From: Adhaeribacter pallidiroseus
GTDB lineage: Bacteria; Bacteroidota; Bacteroidia; Cytophagales; Hymenobacteraceae
Direction of reading: 5' to 3'
Length of the DNA stretch: 64,000 bases
Assembly: GCF_003340495.1 (NCBI RefSeq)
Contig: NZ_QASA01000001.1
Span: forward strand, 4,154,001-4,218,000
Part shown: positions 4,382 through 55,549 of the stretch, one piece after another
Layout of the letters: every line of letters starts with the position of its first letter
How positions within the stretch are numbered: the stretch's first letter is position 1
The notes under the pieces: model-generated
The model's input: only the letters and a program-made list of their open reading frames with translations
Databases searched by the model: none
What the model was told of the DNA's origin: nothing
Made by a program: the position numbers and the translations under genes

Positions 4382-4438
4382 AAAAATGGAATTGATTGAG
4401 ATTTTATATTTTAAAATTTTGGTAATACTGAATTTGAT

Positions 4439-4888
4439 TTATTCCCGCATTTTATCGAGTAAGCGGCTAAGTTCTTCTGCCTCCAAAGCGCTTATATTTT
4501 GTAAGCCCTTAATCTGGGTGCCTTCGGCCTCGTCAATCTGCTGGAGCAAGGCCAATCCTTTGTCGGTAATTAAAATATCTACCGTGCGGCGGTCCTTGGG
4601 GCATTGGTGCCGGGTTACTAACTCTTTCGCTTCTAACTTATCAACAATGCGCGAGGCGTTCGACGTTTTATCGAGCATGCGCTCAATGAGTAAATTTACC
4701 GTAGCGGGTTTAGGATGCTGCCCCCGTAAGATGCGTAAAATATTAAACTGAGGTAAGGTAAGGCCATATTTTTTAAAAATAACCGCTTGTTGTTCCTGCA
4801 ACCACCCCGAAGTAAATATCAGGTTGATGTATACTTTATGGTACACATCTTTAAATGTTCGTTGTTTAATTTCTTCCTCTATTTTCAT
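4439..4888 (-). CDS. MarR family transcriptional regulator
   Basis: 149 residues with a MarR winged helix: recognition region FNILRILRGQHPKPATVNLL, followed by RMLDKTSNASRIVDKLEAKELV and the wing CPKDRRTVDILITDKG. Length and layout are normal for MarR dimers. The gene precedes yceI on the same strand and probably controls it together with its own promoter: a 12-base palindrome overlaps the predicted -33 element upstream. The inducer cannot be read from the sequence. Confidence 0.93.
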   Translation of the reverse strand: MKIEEEIKQRTFKDVYHKVYINLIFTSGWLQEQQAVIFKKYGLTLPQFNILRILRGQHPKPATVNLLIERMLDKTSNASRIVDKLEAKELVTRHQCPKDRRTVDILITDKGLALLQQIDEAEGTQIKGLQNISALEAEELSRLLDKMRE

Positions 4889-49689: not shown

Positions 49690-52600
49690 GTGCCTGAATT
49701 CTCGCATTTACACTGCCATACGCAATATTCTTTACTCGACGGAGCGGCCAGCATTGGCGGCCTGATGAAAAAAGCCCAAGCCGACGGCATGAAAGCCGTA
49801 GCCATGACCGACCACGGCAACATGTTCGGGGCTTTTAACTTTGTGGCCGAAGCGAATAAGTACAACGTAAAACCCATTGTGGGCTGCGAATTTTATTTGG
49901 TACAAGACCGCCACCAAAAAGTTTTCACCAAAGAACAGCGCGATAACCGGTATCATCAATTACTGTTAGCCAAAGACCAGGACGGCTACAAAAACCTCTC
50001 GAAACTTTGCTCGATGAGCTACATCGAGGGTTTGTACAGCAAATGGCCCCGCATTGATAAAGATATTTTAAAAAATACGCCAAAGGCTTAATTGCTACCA
50101 GCTGCTGCATTGGCGCCGAAGTACCGCAGGCCATTCTATGGAAAAGCGAAGAAGAAGCGGAAAAAACTTTACTGTGGTGGCTCGATTTATTCGGCGAAGA
50201 TTACTACATCGAGATTCAACGCCACGGCCTGCAAAACATTGATAATACGGGCAAAAGCCAGGAAGACGTAAACCAGGTGCTGCTCAAGTGGGCCAAAAAA
50301 TACAACATAAAAGTAATCTGCACCAACGACTCGCACTACATCGAGCAAAACGACTGGAACGCCCACGACATTTTATTGTGCGTAAATACCGGCGAAGACG
50401 AAAGCATTCCGGTCGGTGATTTTCAGACGAAATACTTCCGCTTGCTCACCAACAAAGGGGATGTCGCTTACGACCATATCGATAACCTGCGGAAAAACCT
50501 GGGCAACGACGACGTAGCGCGCCGCATGCTGTACCGCATCGAAGAAGAAATGCAGAAGCCCCGGCCACAAAGCCGTTTTGGTTTTCCCAACGACGAATTC
50601 TACTTCAAGACGCAGGCGCAGATGAACCAGCTGTTCCGCGACGTGCCGGAATCAGTTGACAATACCAACGAAATCGTTGATAAAATTACGCCGCCCAAAC
50701 TTCAGCGCGATATTCTTTTGCCCAACTTCCCCATTCCGCCGGAACACGCCGGACCGGATGCTTTTTTGCGCCATTTAACCTTTGAAGGGGCCAAAAAACG
50801 GTACAAAGAATTTACGCCCGAGGTAGAAGAACGCCTGAACTACGAACTGCAAATCATCGAAACCATGGGGTTTGCCGGTTACTTTTTAATTGTGCAGGAC
50901 TTTATCAACCAAGGCCGTTCCATGGGCGTGGTGGTGGGCCCGGGCCGGGGTTCGGCCGCGGGTTCGGCGGTAGCCTACTGCGTAGGGATTACCAACATCG
51001 ACCCGATTAAATACTCGCTGCTGTTTGAGCGTTTTTTAAATCCGGAACGGGTATCCATGCCCGATATTGATATTGACTTCGACGACGAAAACCGCCAGCG
51101 GGTAATCGACTACGTGGTCGAGAAATACGGCAAAACCCAGGTAGCCCAGATTATTACGTTTGGTACCATGGCGGCCAAATCGAGCATAAAAGACGTGGCC
51201 CGCGCTACCGAATTGCCTTTATCCGAAGCGAACGAACTGGCCAAAATGGTACCCGATACCCCCGGCACCACGCTCGCCCGTGCCTTTATTGAATCGCCGG
51301 AACTAGCCAGCATTCGCGCGGGCAACGACCACCGCGGTAAAGTCATGCAACTCGCCGAAAAGCTGGAAGGTTCGGTGCGCAATACCGGTATTCACGCGGC
51401 CGGGGTAATTATTGCCCCCGATGATATTACTAATTACATTCCGGTTTCTACTTCCAAAGACTCCGACCTGCTCGTAACGCAGTTCGACGGGAAAGTAATC
51501 GAAAGCGCCGGCATGCTCAAAATGGACTTTCTGGGTTTAAAAACCCTCACCATTATTCGGGATGCTTTAGAACTGATTAAAACCAACCACGGCGTAGCTA
51601 TTGATATTGACGAGATTCCGCTGGAAGACGAAAAAACCTTTGCGCTCTACCAACGCGGCGATACCATTGGTACGTTCCAGTTTGAATCCGAAGGCATGCG
51701 GATGTATTTGAAAGATTTGCAGCCCACCAATATCGAAGATTTAATTGCCATGAACGCCTTGTACCGCCCTGGTCCGATGCAGTTCATCCCGAACTTTATT
51801 AACCGGAAACACGGTCGTGAACCGGTAGAATACCCGCACGAGTTGCTCGAACCCATCCTGAATTACTCTTACGGGATTATGGTATACCAGGAGCAGATTA
51901 TGCAAACGGCCCAGATTCTAGCGGGCTACTCCTTGGGCGGTGCCGACTTGCTGCGCCGCGCCATGGGTAAAAAAGACATGGCCAAAATGGCCAAAGAGCG
52001 CGAAAAATTTATAAAAGGTGCCAAAGAACTCCACAAAATACCCGAGAAAAAAGCGTCGGAAGTGTTTGACGTAATGGAGAAATTTGCGCAGTACGGTTTT
52101 AACCGGTCGCACTCGGCGGCCTACTCGGTGGTTGCTTACCAAACCGGATACCTCAAAGCACATTACCCGGCGGAGTACATGGCGGCGGTGCTCACGCACA
52201 ACATGAATGATATTAAAAAGGTAACGTTCTTTATCGAGGAAGCGCGTCGGCAACAAGTACCGGTTTTGGGTCCGGACGTGAACGAATCGATTTATAAGTT
52301 TAACGTAAACAAAGAAGGCGCGATTCGTTTTGGTTTGGGAGCGGTAAAAGGCACCGGCGAATCAGCGGTAGAGGCTATTCTGGAAGAACGCGAAAAGAAA
52401 GGGACGTACTCCGACATATTTGACTTTGCCAAAAGAGCCAATTTGCGGGCCGTTAACAAAAAAACCTTTGAAAGTTTAGCCCAAGCCGGCGCTTTTGATT
52501 CGTTTGAACGCTACCACCGGGCGCAGTACATTGAAATACCGGAAGGCGATAGCCAGAACCTACTCGAAAAAGCCATGCGCTTTGGCAACCAGCACCAGGC

Positions 52601-53406: not shown

Positions 53407-54387
53407 ATGGATTTAAATTTATTAAAAAGAAATCAAGGCATTTCATTTGAACTGAAGAAAAAAGCAATTGAAAAGAGCCGTAAATGTTCTCTTTTTAACT
53501 GCACTACTCCTTCTATTTTATCACATACTATACAAAAGAGTAAATTGAAGGAAATCCTTGCTCCAGATGGACATGTTTATACTATTGATTCAACAGGCTT
53601 CATTGAAGTAGGTACGTTATCTAAATTTAAAAAAGTAGGCGTAGGTAATGCTCTTACATTTAAGGGGTTCTGTTCGGTACATGATAATCAAATTTTTCAA
53701 CCAGTAGAGAGAATTAATGCTGATTTTACTACTTATGAAAGTTTCCTTTTATTTTCATTTAGAGCTGTAATGAATGAAATTCGAAAAAAAGAAATAATTA
53801 TTGATTGGTTTGAATCATTATTAAATCATCCAAAACTTCATGTTAGTATCAATAAGGAGAATGTTAAAGCAGGGCTTAGAGGACAACTTTTAGGTATCCA
53901 AGATTTAAAGTACGTTGAAGATGAGATATTGAATGAAATTGCCAGATTACCGAATCATAATAGATCATTTGTTTATAAAGTCTTAATTTTACCATCTATT
54001 CCTGTTTGTGGTTCAGCAATTTATAATGAAGAATCTTTTGAAGATATGGCCTCGCATACGTACGGACCAAATGGCGAATCCCCTTTAAATAGTAGATTAA
54101 TTCACATCATTCCAGATTTAAATTCGACATATTTAATTATAGGCTATCACTCAAGTTTTAACAACAAGAATAGCCAATTCTTCAGCGAACTAGAGCAAAG
54201 AGATAATTCTTCTCTATTAAGTTTAGCTAATGACTTGCTTGTTAAAAGAATCGAATCTTGGGCTTGCTCTACTCAATTTTACTTAGAAAAGGTGAGACCA
54301 GTAGAGGAAGAATTTTTAAGATTATTTTCACACCCAAATACTAAAAGATTTATGGAAAGTCAACTTGCAATTAATATTTTATCTTAA
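53407..54387 (+). CDS. Unknown protein with zinc-site-like motif
   Basis: 326 residues, no signal peptide. Near the N-terminus are C27 and C32 (RKCSLFNC), H40 in SHTIQKSKLK and C89-x2-H92 (GFCSVHD), a spacing that fits a treble-clef/HNH-like zinc site. A conserved-looking ILAPDGHVYTID lies between. The remainder is mixed alpha/beta and not recognised. Strongly AT-rich against dnaE, and set between dnaE and an aberrant tRNA, so probably acquired. A nuclease or defence role is only a guess. Confidence 0.75.
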   Translation: MDLNLLKRNQGISFELKKKAIEKSRKCSLFNCTTPSILSHTIQKSKLKEILAPDGHVYTIDSTGFIEVGTLSKFKKVGVGNALTFKGFCSVHDNQIFQPVERINADFTTYESFLLFSFRAVMNEIRKKEIIIDWFESLLNHPKLHVSINKENVKAGLRGQLLGIQDLKYVEDEILNEIARLPNHNRSFVYKVLILPSIPVCGSAIYNEESFEDMASHTYGPNGESPLNSRLIHIIPDLNSTYLIIGYHSSFNNKNSQFFSELEQRDNSSLLSLANDLLVKRIESWACSTQFYLEKVRPVEEEFLRLFSHPNTKRFMESQLAINILS

Positions 54388-54475
54388 AAGATCATGCAGG
54401 AATACTTACTAGATAAATGGAAAGAAATAAAACTTTTCTGTTTAAGTAATTACGTTTTAATCTAAAAAAAATAAC

Positions 54476-54483
54476 TATCTTTA
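54476..54483 (+). promoter_or_regulatory. -7 box before the aberrant tRNA
   Basis: TATCTTTA, one base off TAnnTTTG, ends 12 bases before the tRNA-like gene, similar in spacing to the tRNA-Leu promoter. Confidence 0.45.
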
Positions 54484-54495
54484 CATAACGATTAC

Positions 54496-54590
54496 GGCCC
54501 ATTCGTCTAGTGGTTAGGACAAAAGACATTTTGGGTAGAGAGTTAAAGACTTTTAATCTTTGAACGTGGGTTCGATTCCCACATGGGCTA
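54496..54590 (+). tRNA. Aberrant tRNA-Lys-like gene (anticodon TTT) with 23-nt insertion
   Basis: Acceptor GGCCCAT/ATGGGCT, D-arm GTCTAGTGGTTAGGAC and T-arm GTGGGTTCGATTCCCAC are all sound, and the body resembles Bacteroidota tRNA-Glu. Between D-arm and anticodon, 23 extra bases (54528-54550) repeat AAAGAC at their end, so the first AAAGAC is followed by ATTTTGGGTAGAGAGTT and a second AAAGAC. Removing them leaves a normal 72-nt tRNA whose stem-loop AAAGA-CTTTTAA-TCTTT has anticodon TTT. CCA is not encoded. The inserted GGGTAGAG recalls the D-loop of tRNA-Lys. Either a chimera or pseudo-tRNA, or one needing processing. Confidence 0.7.
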
Positions 54591-54620
54591 CAATTATAAT
54601 ATTGACTCTCTACTCCTTAA

Positions 54621-54645
54621 ATGCCAGCATATGCTGGCATTTTTG
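54621..54645 (+). terminator. Terminator after the tRNA-like gene
   Basis: Perfect 20-base palindrome ATGCCAGCATATGCTGGCAT followed by TTTTG. The rest of 54646-54905 contains two short imperfect hairpins (54691-54720 and GGAAGTC-TCCT-GACTTCC at 54734-54751) but no gene. Confidence 0.85.
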
Positions 54646-54905
54646 TTTATAATAACTTATTATGTTAATTTTTTGAAAAGAATCGCCTAGTGCAAGTATT
54701 TAGCGCAGCGCTACTTGTACTTTACAGACTAGAGGAAGTCTCCTGACTTCCGTAGGAAAATAATGTGTTACCCACCAGTCCGGAAACTGGCATTTGTCTT
54801 CTAGGTCCAAGAGACGCTGCGCTTAACTCTTGAATCAACAGGTTGCAACTTAACTTATACCTGATAAACTGTTTTTATAAAATTCGTATATTTAACAAAA
54901 AAGCC

Positions 54906-55109
54906 ATGATCATCGAGCGGACAGAAAATGAGGTAATTTTTAAATTTTCGGGCAATATCAACGTGGATGATCTGCAAGATATAGCGGATTTTTTGGAGTT
55001 CGCGGAATTAGCAAACAAATCAAAGGCGACTCAAAACGAGGTAGATGCATTAGTAAAAACTGTAAAAAAAGGCCGTTGGGATAAAACTAAGTCCAGATTG
55101 GGTTTATGA
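54906..55109 (+). CDS. Antitoxin of a PIN-domain toxin-antitoxin pair
   Basis: 67 residues from ATG 54906 (MIIERTENEVIFKFSGNINV); an upstream in-frame ATG at 54843 gives an unlikely leader. Acidic helix DDLQDIADFLEFAELANKSKA and basic tail KKGRWDKTKSRLGL, like many small VapB-type partners. Its stop overlaps the start of the PIN gene as ATGA, so translation is coupled. The family is inferred from the partner. Confidence 0.75.
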   Translation: MIIERTENEVIFKFSGNINVDDLQDIADFLEFAELANKSKATQNEVDALVKTVKKGRWDKTKSRLGL

Positions 55110-55549
55110 GAATTGTTGTGGATACCAACATTGCATTTAGTGCTATTCTTAATACCAATAGTAAAATTGCCTGAATATTTCTTCAGCCAAAATCACGTTT
55201 AAACTTCTACTCAACGGAACAGCTTTTAACAGAGATCGAGGAGCATAAAGGTAAACTTCAAAAAATTTCAAAATATTCTGATTCGGAACTAAATAGAGCT
55301 ATTTTGTTGATTACTAACCGAATAAGATTTATAAACGTAAAGCTTATACCTAAAGAAATTTACCAAAAAGCGGTAAATTTAACTATAGATGTAGATATTG
55401 ACGACACCGAATTTGTAGCCTTAACGGAACATATTAAAGCAAAACTATGGAGTGGTGACAAAGAATTGTTTCAAGGTTTGAGAAAGAAAAAGTGGAATAA
55501 AATAATCACCACGGATGAACTCTACAACCTTGCTTTCGGCAAACTTTAA
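55106..55549 (+). pseudogene. PIN-domain RNase toxin with in-frame nonsense codon
   Basis: 147 codons from ATG 55106. The first 22 residues (MRIVVDTNIAFSAILNTN) hold the conserved first Asp of PIN domains. TGA at 55172-55174 stands where CGA (Arg) would be expected (then IFLQPKSRLNFYSTEQLL). The rest of the frame is open and keeps the later acidic residues (EIEEHK, DIDDTEFVALTEHIKAKLWSGDKEL). So one point mutation, not a homopolymer slip, disables it. Re-initiation at ATG 55304 would lack the active site. VapC-like tRNA or mRNA cleaver by family. Confidence 0.8.

Follow-up and report, generated by a model that had tools for sequence, protein, structure and literature searches.

A tRNA-Glu-type gene with a 21-23-nt insert and an insert-complementary 3' trailer in Adhaeribacter pallidiroseus and Sediminibacterium sp. 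Gen4

Results

Layout of the tRNA-like gene

The window analyzed here, a stretch of 64,000 nucleotides of the Adhaeribacter pallidiroseus genome (NZ_QASA01000001.1, positions 4,154,001 to 4,218,000), carries at 54496-54590 of its forward strand a gene for a tRNA-like RNA that has a body of the tRNA-Glu type, a Lys anticodon loop (UUU), and a 23-nt insert. The RNA extends to the discriminator base, and its stems are intact: the 5' strand of the acceptor stem (54496-54502) pairs with 54583-54589 at 7 of 7 positions, the tRNA-Glu-type D arm (54505-54520) at 4 of 4, and the T arm (54566-54582) at 5 of 5, with standard pairs both here and in a homologue from Sediminibacterium sp. Gen4, where the D arm is identical. 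The anticodon loop, CTTTTAA, occupies 54550-54556 with the anticodon TTT at 54552-54554. The motif AAAGAC stands twice, at 54522-54527 and 54545-54550, with a spacing of 23 nt, and because of this repeat two placements of the insert are possible. A preliminary description made from this DNA had reported an insert-bearing tRNA with intact acceptor, D, and T arms and a repeat of AAAGAC, and the sequence is as it described, with the same layout around a 21-nt insert in Gen4.

Downstream of the gene, a stem-loop at 54619-54642 followed by a T-rich tail has the form of an intrinsic terminator; its stem is 10 bp, shuffled sequences give an expectation of 0.2 on average, and it has a counterpart at L097:2353-2382 in Gen4, so the terminator claimed earlier is well founded. 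As to the promoter element claimed with it, the letters TATCTTTA at 54476-54483 can be read by eye as a possible -7 box of a Bacteroidota promoter; a sigma-70 scan returned no plus-strand site upstream of the tRNA-like gene.

The gene is present in a single copy in its own 6.43-Mb genome, which also holds two tRNA-Glu(TTC) genes close in sequence to the window body and, among the loci scanned with ARAGORN, one further tRNA-Lys(ttt) gene. Compared with its own tRNA-Glu, the RNA is identical at 23 of the first 25 bases and at 20 of 25 in the T arm and 3' acceptor strand, and one acceptor pair and two T-stem pairs are changed on both sides (by eye). The earlier account of a Glu-like body with a Lys anticodon is thus correct: the D arm, variable loop, and acceptor are of the Glu type, and the anticodon loop is of the Lys type. 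What sets the RNA apart from the ordinary genes for tRNA-Glu and tRNA-Lys in its genome is the 23-nt insert, a 3' trailer complementary to that insert, and its failure to be reported by ARAGORN.

In the native window sequence, ARAGORN reported only an unrelated tRNA-Leu, and the Rfam tRNA model scored the gene at 30.0 bits against a cut-off of 29, with limits (54524-54590) that miss the real 5' end. When the sequence was cut between the AAAGAC repeats, the remaining 72 nt were called tRNA-Lys(ttt) by ARAGORN in the window and Gen4 alike, with loops (CTTTTAA and ATTTTAA, respectively) in which U33, the UUU anticodon, and A37 are all present, as the preliminary description had foreseen for excision.

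With respect to known classes, the RNA has the stems of a canonical tRNA, but it exceeds the canonical length (72-76 nt, or ∼90 nt with a long variable arm) by 23 nt, or by 21 nt in Gen4, and its anticodon arm is not uninterrupted; if the second AAAGA copy is used, the anticodon arm of the window RNA becomes continuous, but the 23-nt insert then stands ahead of it. At 23 and 21 nt, the inserts fall far short of the size of a group I intron, and no Rfam intron family matched within 54400-54860 at a threshold of E 5. A tmRNA has no D stem and carries a tag reading frame, whereas a D stem is present here; ARAGORN found no tmRNA in the window, and the Rfam model for permuted tmRNA reached 11.3 bits against a cut-off of 47. 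A coding or tmRNA-like insert was rejected, the window and Gen4 inserts having no common reading frame by eye. Elsewhere in the window, a group II intron match (RF02001, 109.6 bits) lies at 1079-1249 on the minus strand.

A homologue in Sediminibacterium sp. Gen4

We scanned 84,980 species with a pattern that specified a tRNA-Glu-type body with 38-62 bases between the D stem and the T arm and obtained 18 stretches, 14 of them with archaeal titles and four bacterial. Three of the bacterial stretches (L082, L090, and L095) resemble local duplications by eye, one of them with Ns; that in Candidatus Kaiserbacteria (L090:4664-4734, minus strand) is a tRNA-Glu-type gene with an apparent exact 21-nt tandem duplication around the anticodon arm. 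The fourth, at L097:2238-2330 in Sediminibacterium sp. Gen4, is a clear homologue with a 21-nt insert and shares with the window the D arm, AAGACATTT at the start of the insert, AAAGA, and TTTTAATCTT. Given this homologue, the window RNA is not a one-off, and the recurrence of its arrangement in an independently assembled genome makes it unlikely that the insert is an assembly artefact. At 50060-50095 of the window, dnaE is split into two frames where three genus mates have one base more; this is either a sequencing error or a true frameshift and warns of indel errors in the window assembly.

The homologue also bears on where the insert lies. With the first AAAGA copy (54522-54526) as the likely 5' strand of the anticodon stem, opposite 54557-54561, this stem pairs at 5 of 5 positions in both genomes and so does every other stem, whereas use of the second copy leaves an A-A mismatch in Gen4. 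The preferred position for the insert is therefore at the 5' side of the anticodon loop (54527-54549 in the window; 21 nt in Gen4), with the second AAAGA copy (54545-54549) at its end. A position between the D and anticodon arms, as originally proposed, can be accommodated at 54522-54544, but Gen4 favors the former. Between the window and Gen4, six stem pairs differ on both sides (three in the acceptor stem, two in the T stem, and one in the anticodon stem), and all still pair. Gene conversion may explain part of these paired changes in Gen4, since the T arm and 3' acceptor strand of the Gen4 RNA are identical over all 25 positions to those of its own tRNA-Glu.

There was no full-length match in 58 relatives: 44 of 59 genomes, the own genome included, gave a match at E ≤1, and the own genome alone gave one at full length. 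A model built from both sequences scores the window at 119.8 bits and Gen4 at 116.3 bits, both by construction, and across 395 genomes of the class the next best match reached 73.3 bits, the others among the matches listed being of ordinary tRNA length. Pattern searches of 395 class, 394 Gen4-family, and 390 order genomes, which are overlapping samples, returned only the window genome or Gen4. Three patterns were run against viral contigs: that for the insert start gave 10 stretches, none a tRNA by eye; the second gave one stretch, in which no tRNA was reported; and the third gave 11, all of which appeared by eye to be ordinary tRNAs adjoining a TAGGAC. BLAST against phages and plasmids found no record with one place covering 80% of the query, and the five records examined among the matches listed have no such insert; a longer stretch of the window found no match in plasmids. 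Among the open-licence papers listed on tRNA introns, tRNA splicing in bacteria, non-canonical tRNAs, phage tRNAs, phage tRNA-like RNAs, and anticodon nucleases, no title or opening of an abstract describes such a gene, and no paper was listed on tRNA-like genes in Bacteroidetes.

Complementarity between insert and 3' trailer

A feature that is new here, and missing from the preliminary description, is the complementarity between the insert and the 3' trailer. In the window, 54533-54546 of the insert can pair with 54602-54615 of the trailer in 14 consecutive pairs (G-U allowed); Gen4 has 12 pairs in the same layout with partly different letters, and in both sequences the terminator follows directly after the complementary stretch of the trailer. 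In 2000 dinucleotide shuffles of the window trailer, the run was reached 7 times and the duplex energy 2 times. The corresponding counts for Gen4 are 59 and 29 of 2000, so that the Gen4 test, taken alone, is weak evidence. Alignment of the two on a shared GTAG leaves 11 comparable insert-trailer pairs, of which two differ on both sides, three differ on one side, and none is broken.

When folding is restricted to nested pairs, the insert-trailer helix excludes the acceptor stem. The predicted energy of the window precursor is -46.9 kcal/mol with this clamp and -45.2 kcal/mol with the acceptor stem forced, and that of the Gen4 precursor is -53.1 versus -44.5 kcal/mol; nested folds cannot show pseudoknots, in which clamp and acceptor stem may form together. 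When the trailer is left out, both RNAs are predicted to form their acceptor and T stems, but the minimum-energy folds contain another D-region hairpin (GTCT with AGAC), no standard anticodon arm, and no full cloverleaf, which counts against a simple tRNA reading. Forcing the anticodon arm in the window RNA gave -23.7 with the first copy of the repeat and -25.5 with the second, compared with -28.6 for a sequence 3 nt longer. The excised form is predicted to fold as a cloverleaf in the window but not in Gen4. Such folds take no account of modified bases or tertiary contacts, which may be important.

The preliminary description saw in the insert a likeness to the D-loop of tRNA-Lys and, from it, a hint of recombination between two tRNAs. 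Neither point is sustained: the 8-mer concerned, GGGTAGAG, occurs in the organism's own tRNA-Val(gac) and tRNA-Thr(ggt), and a run of seven of its letters is all that tRNA-Lys contains; a match of at least 7 nt to some tRNA of the genome arises in 776 of 1000 shuffled inserts, which puts the D-loop match at chance level; and the match is absent from the Gen4 insert, which nevertheless keeps the trailer complementarity. A chimera of tRNA-Glu and tRNA-Lys was rejected on this ground. Slipped tandem duplication was also tried and rejected. The 23-nt units of the window match at 13 of 23 positions, and at 5 of 14 outside the repeat, which 2326 of 5000 shuffles reach; in Gen4 the match is 10 of 21, again with 5 of 14 outside the repeat (2437 of 5000 shuffles).

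Genomic setting

In the window, dnaE precedes the RNA at a distance of 1.2 kb. Six genus mates have sequence beyond dnaE; their similarity to the window ends with that gene (1.5 kb examined), and none has the RNA there; the contig of a seventh ends inside dnaE. The next right-hand gene common to relatives is elsewhere in one of them, G004, which has dnaE at ∼37 kb and that gene at ∼931 kb. In Gen4, the RNA follows dnaK, and a copy of the dnaK 3' end stands on either side of it; these two copies are separated by ∼2 kb and have similarities of 93% and 86%. The break in similarity on the dnaE side in the window, together with the insertion flanked by dnaK 3' ends in Gen4, suggests lateral movement. 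The insertion between the diverged dnaK 3' ends (∼2 kb, L097:1963-4295) contains, besides the tRNA-like RNA, two ORFs (67 and 312 amino acids) that matched no family and, on the minus strand, another unusual tRNA-like sequence (L097:3895-3967, 45.9 bits).

No integrase family was matched by the nearby proteins that were scanned. The 326-amino acid ORF at 53407-54387 matched no Pfam, PADLOC, or NCBIfam family and a PHROG at E 0.3 only; with tblastn, it found two Listeria phage records (1e-5, 31% over 30% of the query), and it has no similarity to the 312-amino acid ORF of Gen4 (best E 0.095). Downstream of the RNA, 54906-55549 holds a small ORF and then a PIN-domain gene (PIN_2, 2.3e-10) that is seemingly interrupted by a stop near its start, a possible toxin-antitoxin remnant. 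The intergenic stretch 54687-54837 has an 80% copy in the same genome (G000:C1:4813125-4813275), and a neighboring protein carries a T9SS sorting domain (TIGR04183, 42.1 bits), in keeping with an origin in Bacteroidota.

tRNA-like RNAs in viral contigs

Glu-type bodies also occur in five viral contigs (L099:2535-2626, L100:9633-9724, L101:6105-6190, L104 near 4399-4487, and L105:9102-9188), the last adjoining phage genes that by eye resemble portal and terminase. Like the window RNA, these phage tRNA-like RNAs have a tRNA-Glu-type body, by eye with the anticodon loop replaced by 20-27 nt; unlike it, they have kept no Lys-type anticodon loop, and their inserts do not resemble that of the window. 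The window RNA, which keeps CTTTTAA with U33 and A37, stands outside the phage tRNA-like RNAs with a replaced anticodon region.

Two of these contigs hold Leu-type bodies in addition (153 nt in L099 and 131 nt in L101), and others are found in viral contigs L101 and L191 onward (for example L255:5788-5891 and L260:5023-5125). A pattern with a tRNA-Leu-type body and 74-104 bases between the D arm and the T loop yielded at least 96 distinct sequences, 88 of these 96 having at least 6 of 7 acceptor pairs and at least 4 of 5 T-stem pairs. The anticodon and variable arms are replaced by a hypervariable middle of 71-101 nt, and the sequences form at least 58 clusters. The folding energy of these middles is modestly better than that of shuffles (median z -1.07; 17 of 60 below -1.5), and RNAalifold found no pair in the middle of the largest cluster (n = 15), both of which argue against a strongly conserved middle. 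By eye, some members of that cluster share a pseudoknot-like pairing; L255 and L260 share such pairing with changed letters, and RNAalifold does not return it. The complementarity of Leu-type middles to their own trailers does not go beyond chance (mean longest run 7.5 versus 7.3 shuffled). Rfam, run on 11 Leu-type loci, called four of them tRNA and left seven uncalled. In Tenacibaculum phage pT24, two near-identical 79-nt tRNAs (L167:1986-2064 and 2353-2431) are annotated as undetermined.

Discussion

On the sequence evidence, a Glu-type body, an insert, a tRNA on removal of that insert, insert-trailer complementarity, and a terminator recur in two distant genomes. The reading that we rank first, although we hold it tentatively and at somewhat short of an even chance, is that the RNA gene is genuine, very rare, and probably spread laterally, and that its product would be tRNA-like, insert-bearing, and gated in its folding by its own trailer. 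It comes first because it makes use of the pairing between insert and trailer, for which the other readings either have no explanation or need an addition; the existence of only two members counts against it. The primary transcript would be held in the insert-trailer clamp, in competition with the acceptor stem, and cutting off the 3' trailer, as in ordinary tRNA 3' processing, would allow the tRNA-like fold to form and present the Lys-type anticodon loop. The insert might then be removed to give tRNA-Lys(UUU) or be retained in a tRNA-like regulator or decoy. Formation of the clamp in cells, its release by trailer processing, and presentation of the Lys-type loop by the product are our inferences.

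It is unlikely, in our estimate, that the insert is a tiny intron, spliced at the RNA level by an unrecognized activity to give tRNA-Lys(UUU), with the trailer pairing positioning or exposing the splice sites. The ARAGORN call of tRNA-Lys(ttt) on removal in both genomes, with U33, UUU, and A37 in place, agrees with such an intron, as do the complete anticodon stem that the first copy of the repeat gives in both genomes, with a two-sided change, where the second has the Gen4 mismatch, and the presence of RtcB ligase genes in the window genome. However, RtcB was found in seven of eight genomes and not in the Gen4 assembly, the excised form of Gen4 is not predicted to fold as a cloverleaf, and the archaeal-type splicing endonuclease (PF01974) was found in none of the eight genomes, with four archaeal controls positive. 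Archaeal tRNA introns, with their bulge-helix-bulge and EndA, also offer short inserts near the anticodon, and archaeal titles predominated among our pattern stretches (14 of 18), but the host here is bacterial and the EndA family is absent from all eight genomes searched; moreover, we know of no trailer pairing of this kind for archaeal introns. Group I introns of bacterial tRNA genes likewise lie at the anticodon loop, but the inserts described here are 21-23 nt and have no Rfam intron match, and the self-splicing introns among the bacterial tRNAs used to train tRNAscan-SE 2.0 are mostly >200 nt (PMC8450103). About as unlikely is a minute non-group-I intron that is removed by an unrecognized activity and gated by intron-trailer pairing, so that a mobile, switchable, Glu-bodied tRNA-Lys would be released after trailer processing.

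We give a similarly low probability to the RNA being a decaying, functionless relic of a tRNA gene on mobile DNA. Rejection of the window RNA by ARAGORN and its bare acceptance by Rfam would fit decay, as would its absence from all six genus mates that continue past dnaE, the interrupted appearance of the neighboring PIN gene, and the position of the Gen4 copy between diverged dnaK 3'-end copies. Decay is at odds, however, with stems that stay intact through paired changes, with insert-trailer complementarity that is kept with partly different letters, and with the intact terminators after both copies.

A decoy or replacement for tRNA-Lys, by which mobile DNA would carry a Lys-loop RNA that blunts an anticodon nuclease, is improbable. 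The loops CTTTTAA and ATTTTAA are kept, the window has a fragment of a PIN-domain gene ∼0.7 kb further downstream, and phage tRNA-Lys can restore infection despite PrrC (PMC11555353). Both that system and the present RNA involve an extra Lys-loop RNA, here on seemingly mobile DNA, but the window RNA differs from the phage tRNA-Lys in its insert, its Glu-type body, and the lack of a recognized phage around it. The Glu-type body itself speaks against a decoy, and the Gen4 neighbors of 67 and 312 amino acids have no PADLOC match.

Least probable is a chimera formed by recombination between tRNA-Glu and tRNA-Lys, or a slipped duplication of the D-arm region, which can call on the AAAGAC repeat 23 nt apart, on GGTAGAG and CTTTTAAT being common to the window RNA and its own tRNA-Lys, and on the exact duplication of a similar sort in L090, but which has a D-loop match at chance level and leaves the insert-trailer complementarity unexplained.

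Viral contigs often carry tRNA bodies with non-standard middles, so a class of structured RNAs may be concealed among the phage tRNAs whose annotation is intron-bearing or undetermined. Known bacterial tRNA introns are self-splicing and mostly >200 nt. Against that background, an insert of 21-23 nt that is kept in two distant bacteria, that leaves a tRNA on removal, and that has a co-changing trailer would mean either an undescribed route of bacterial tRNA splicing or a tRNA-like RNA under the control of its own 3' end.
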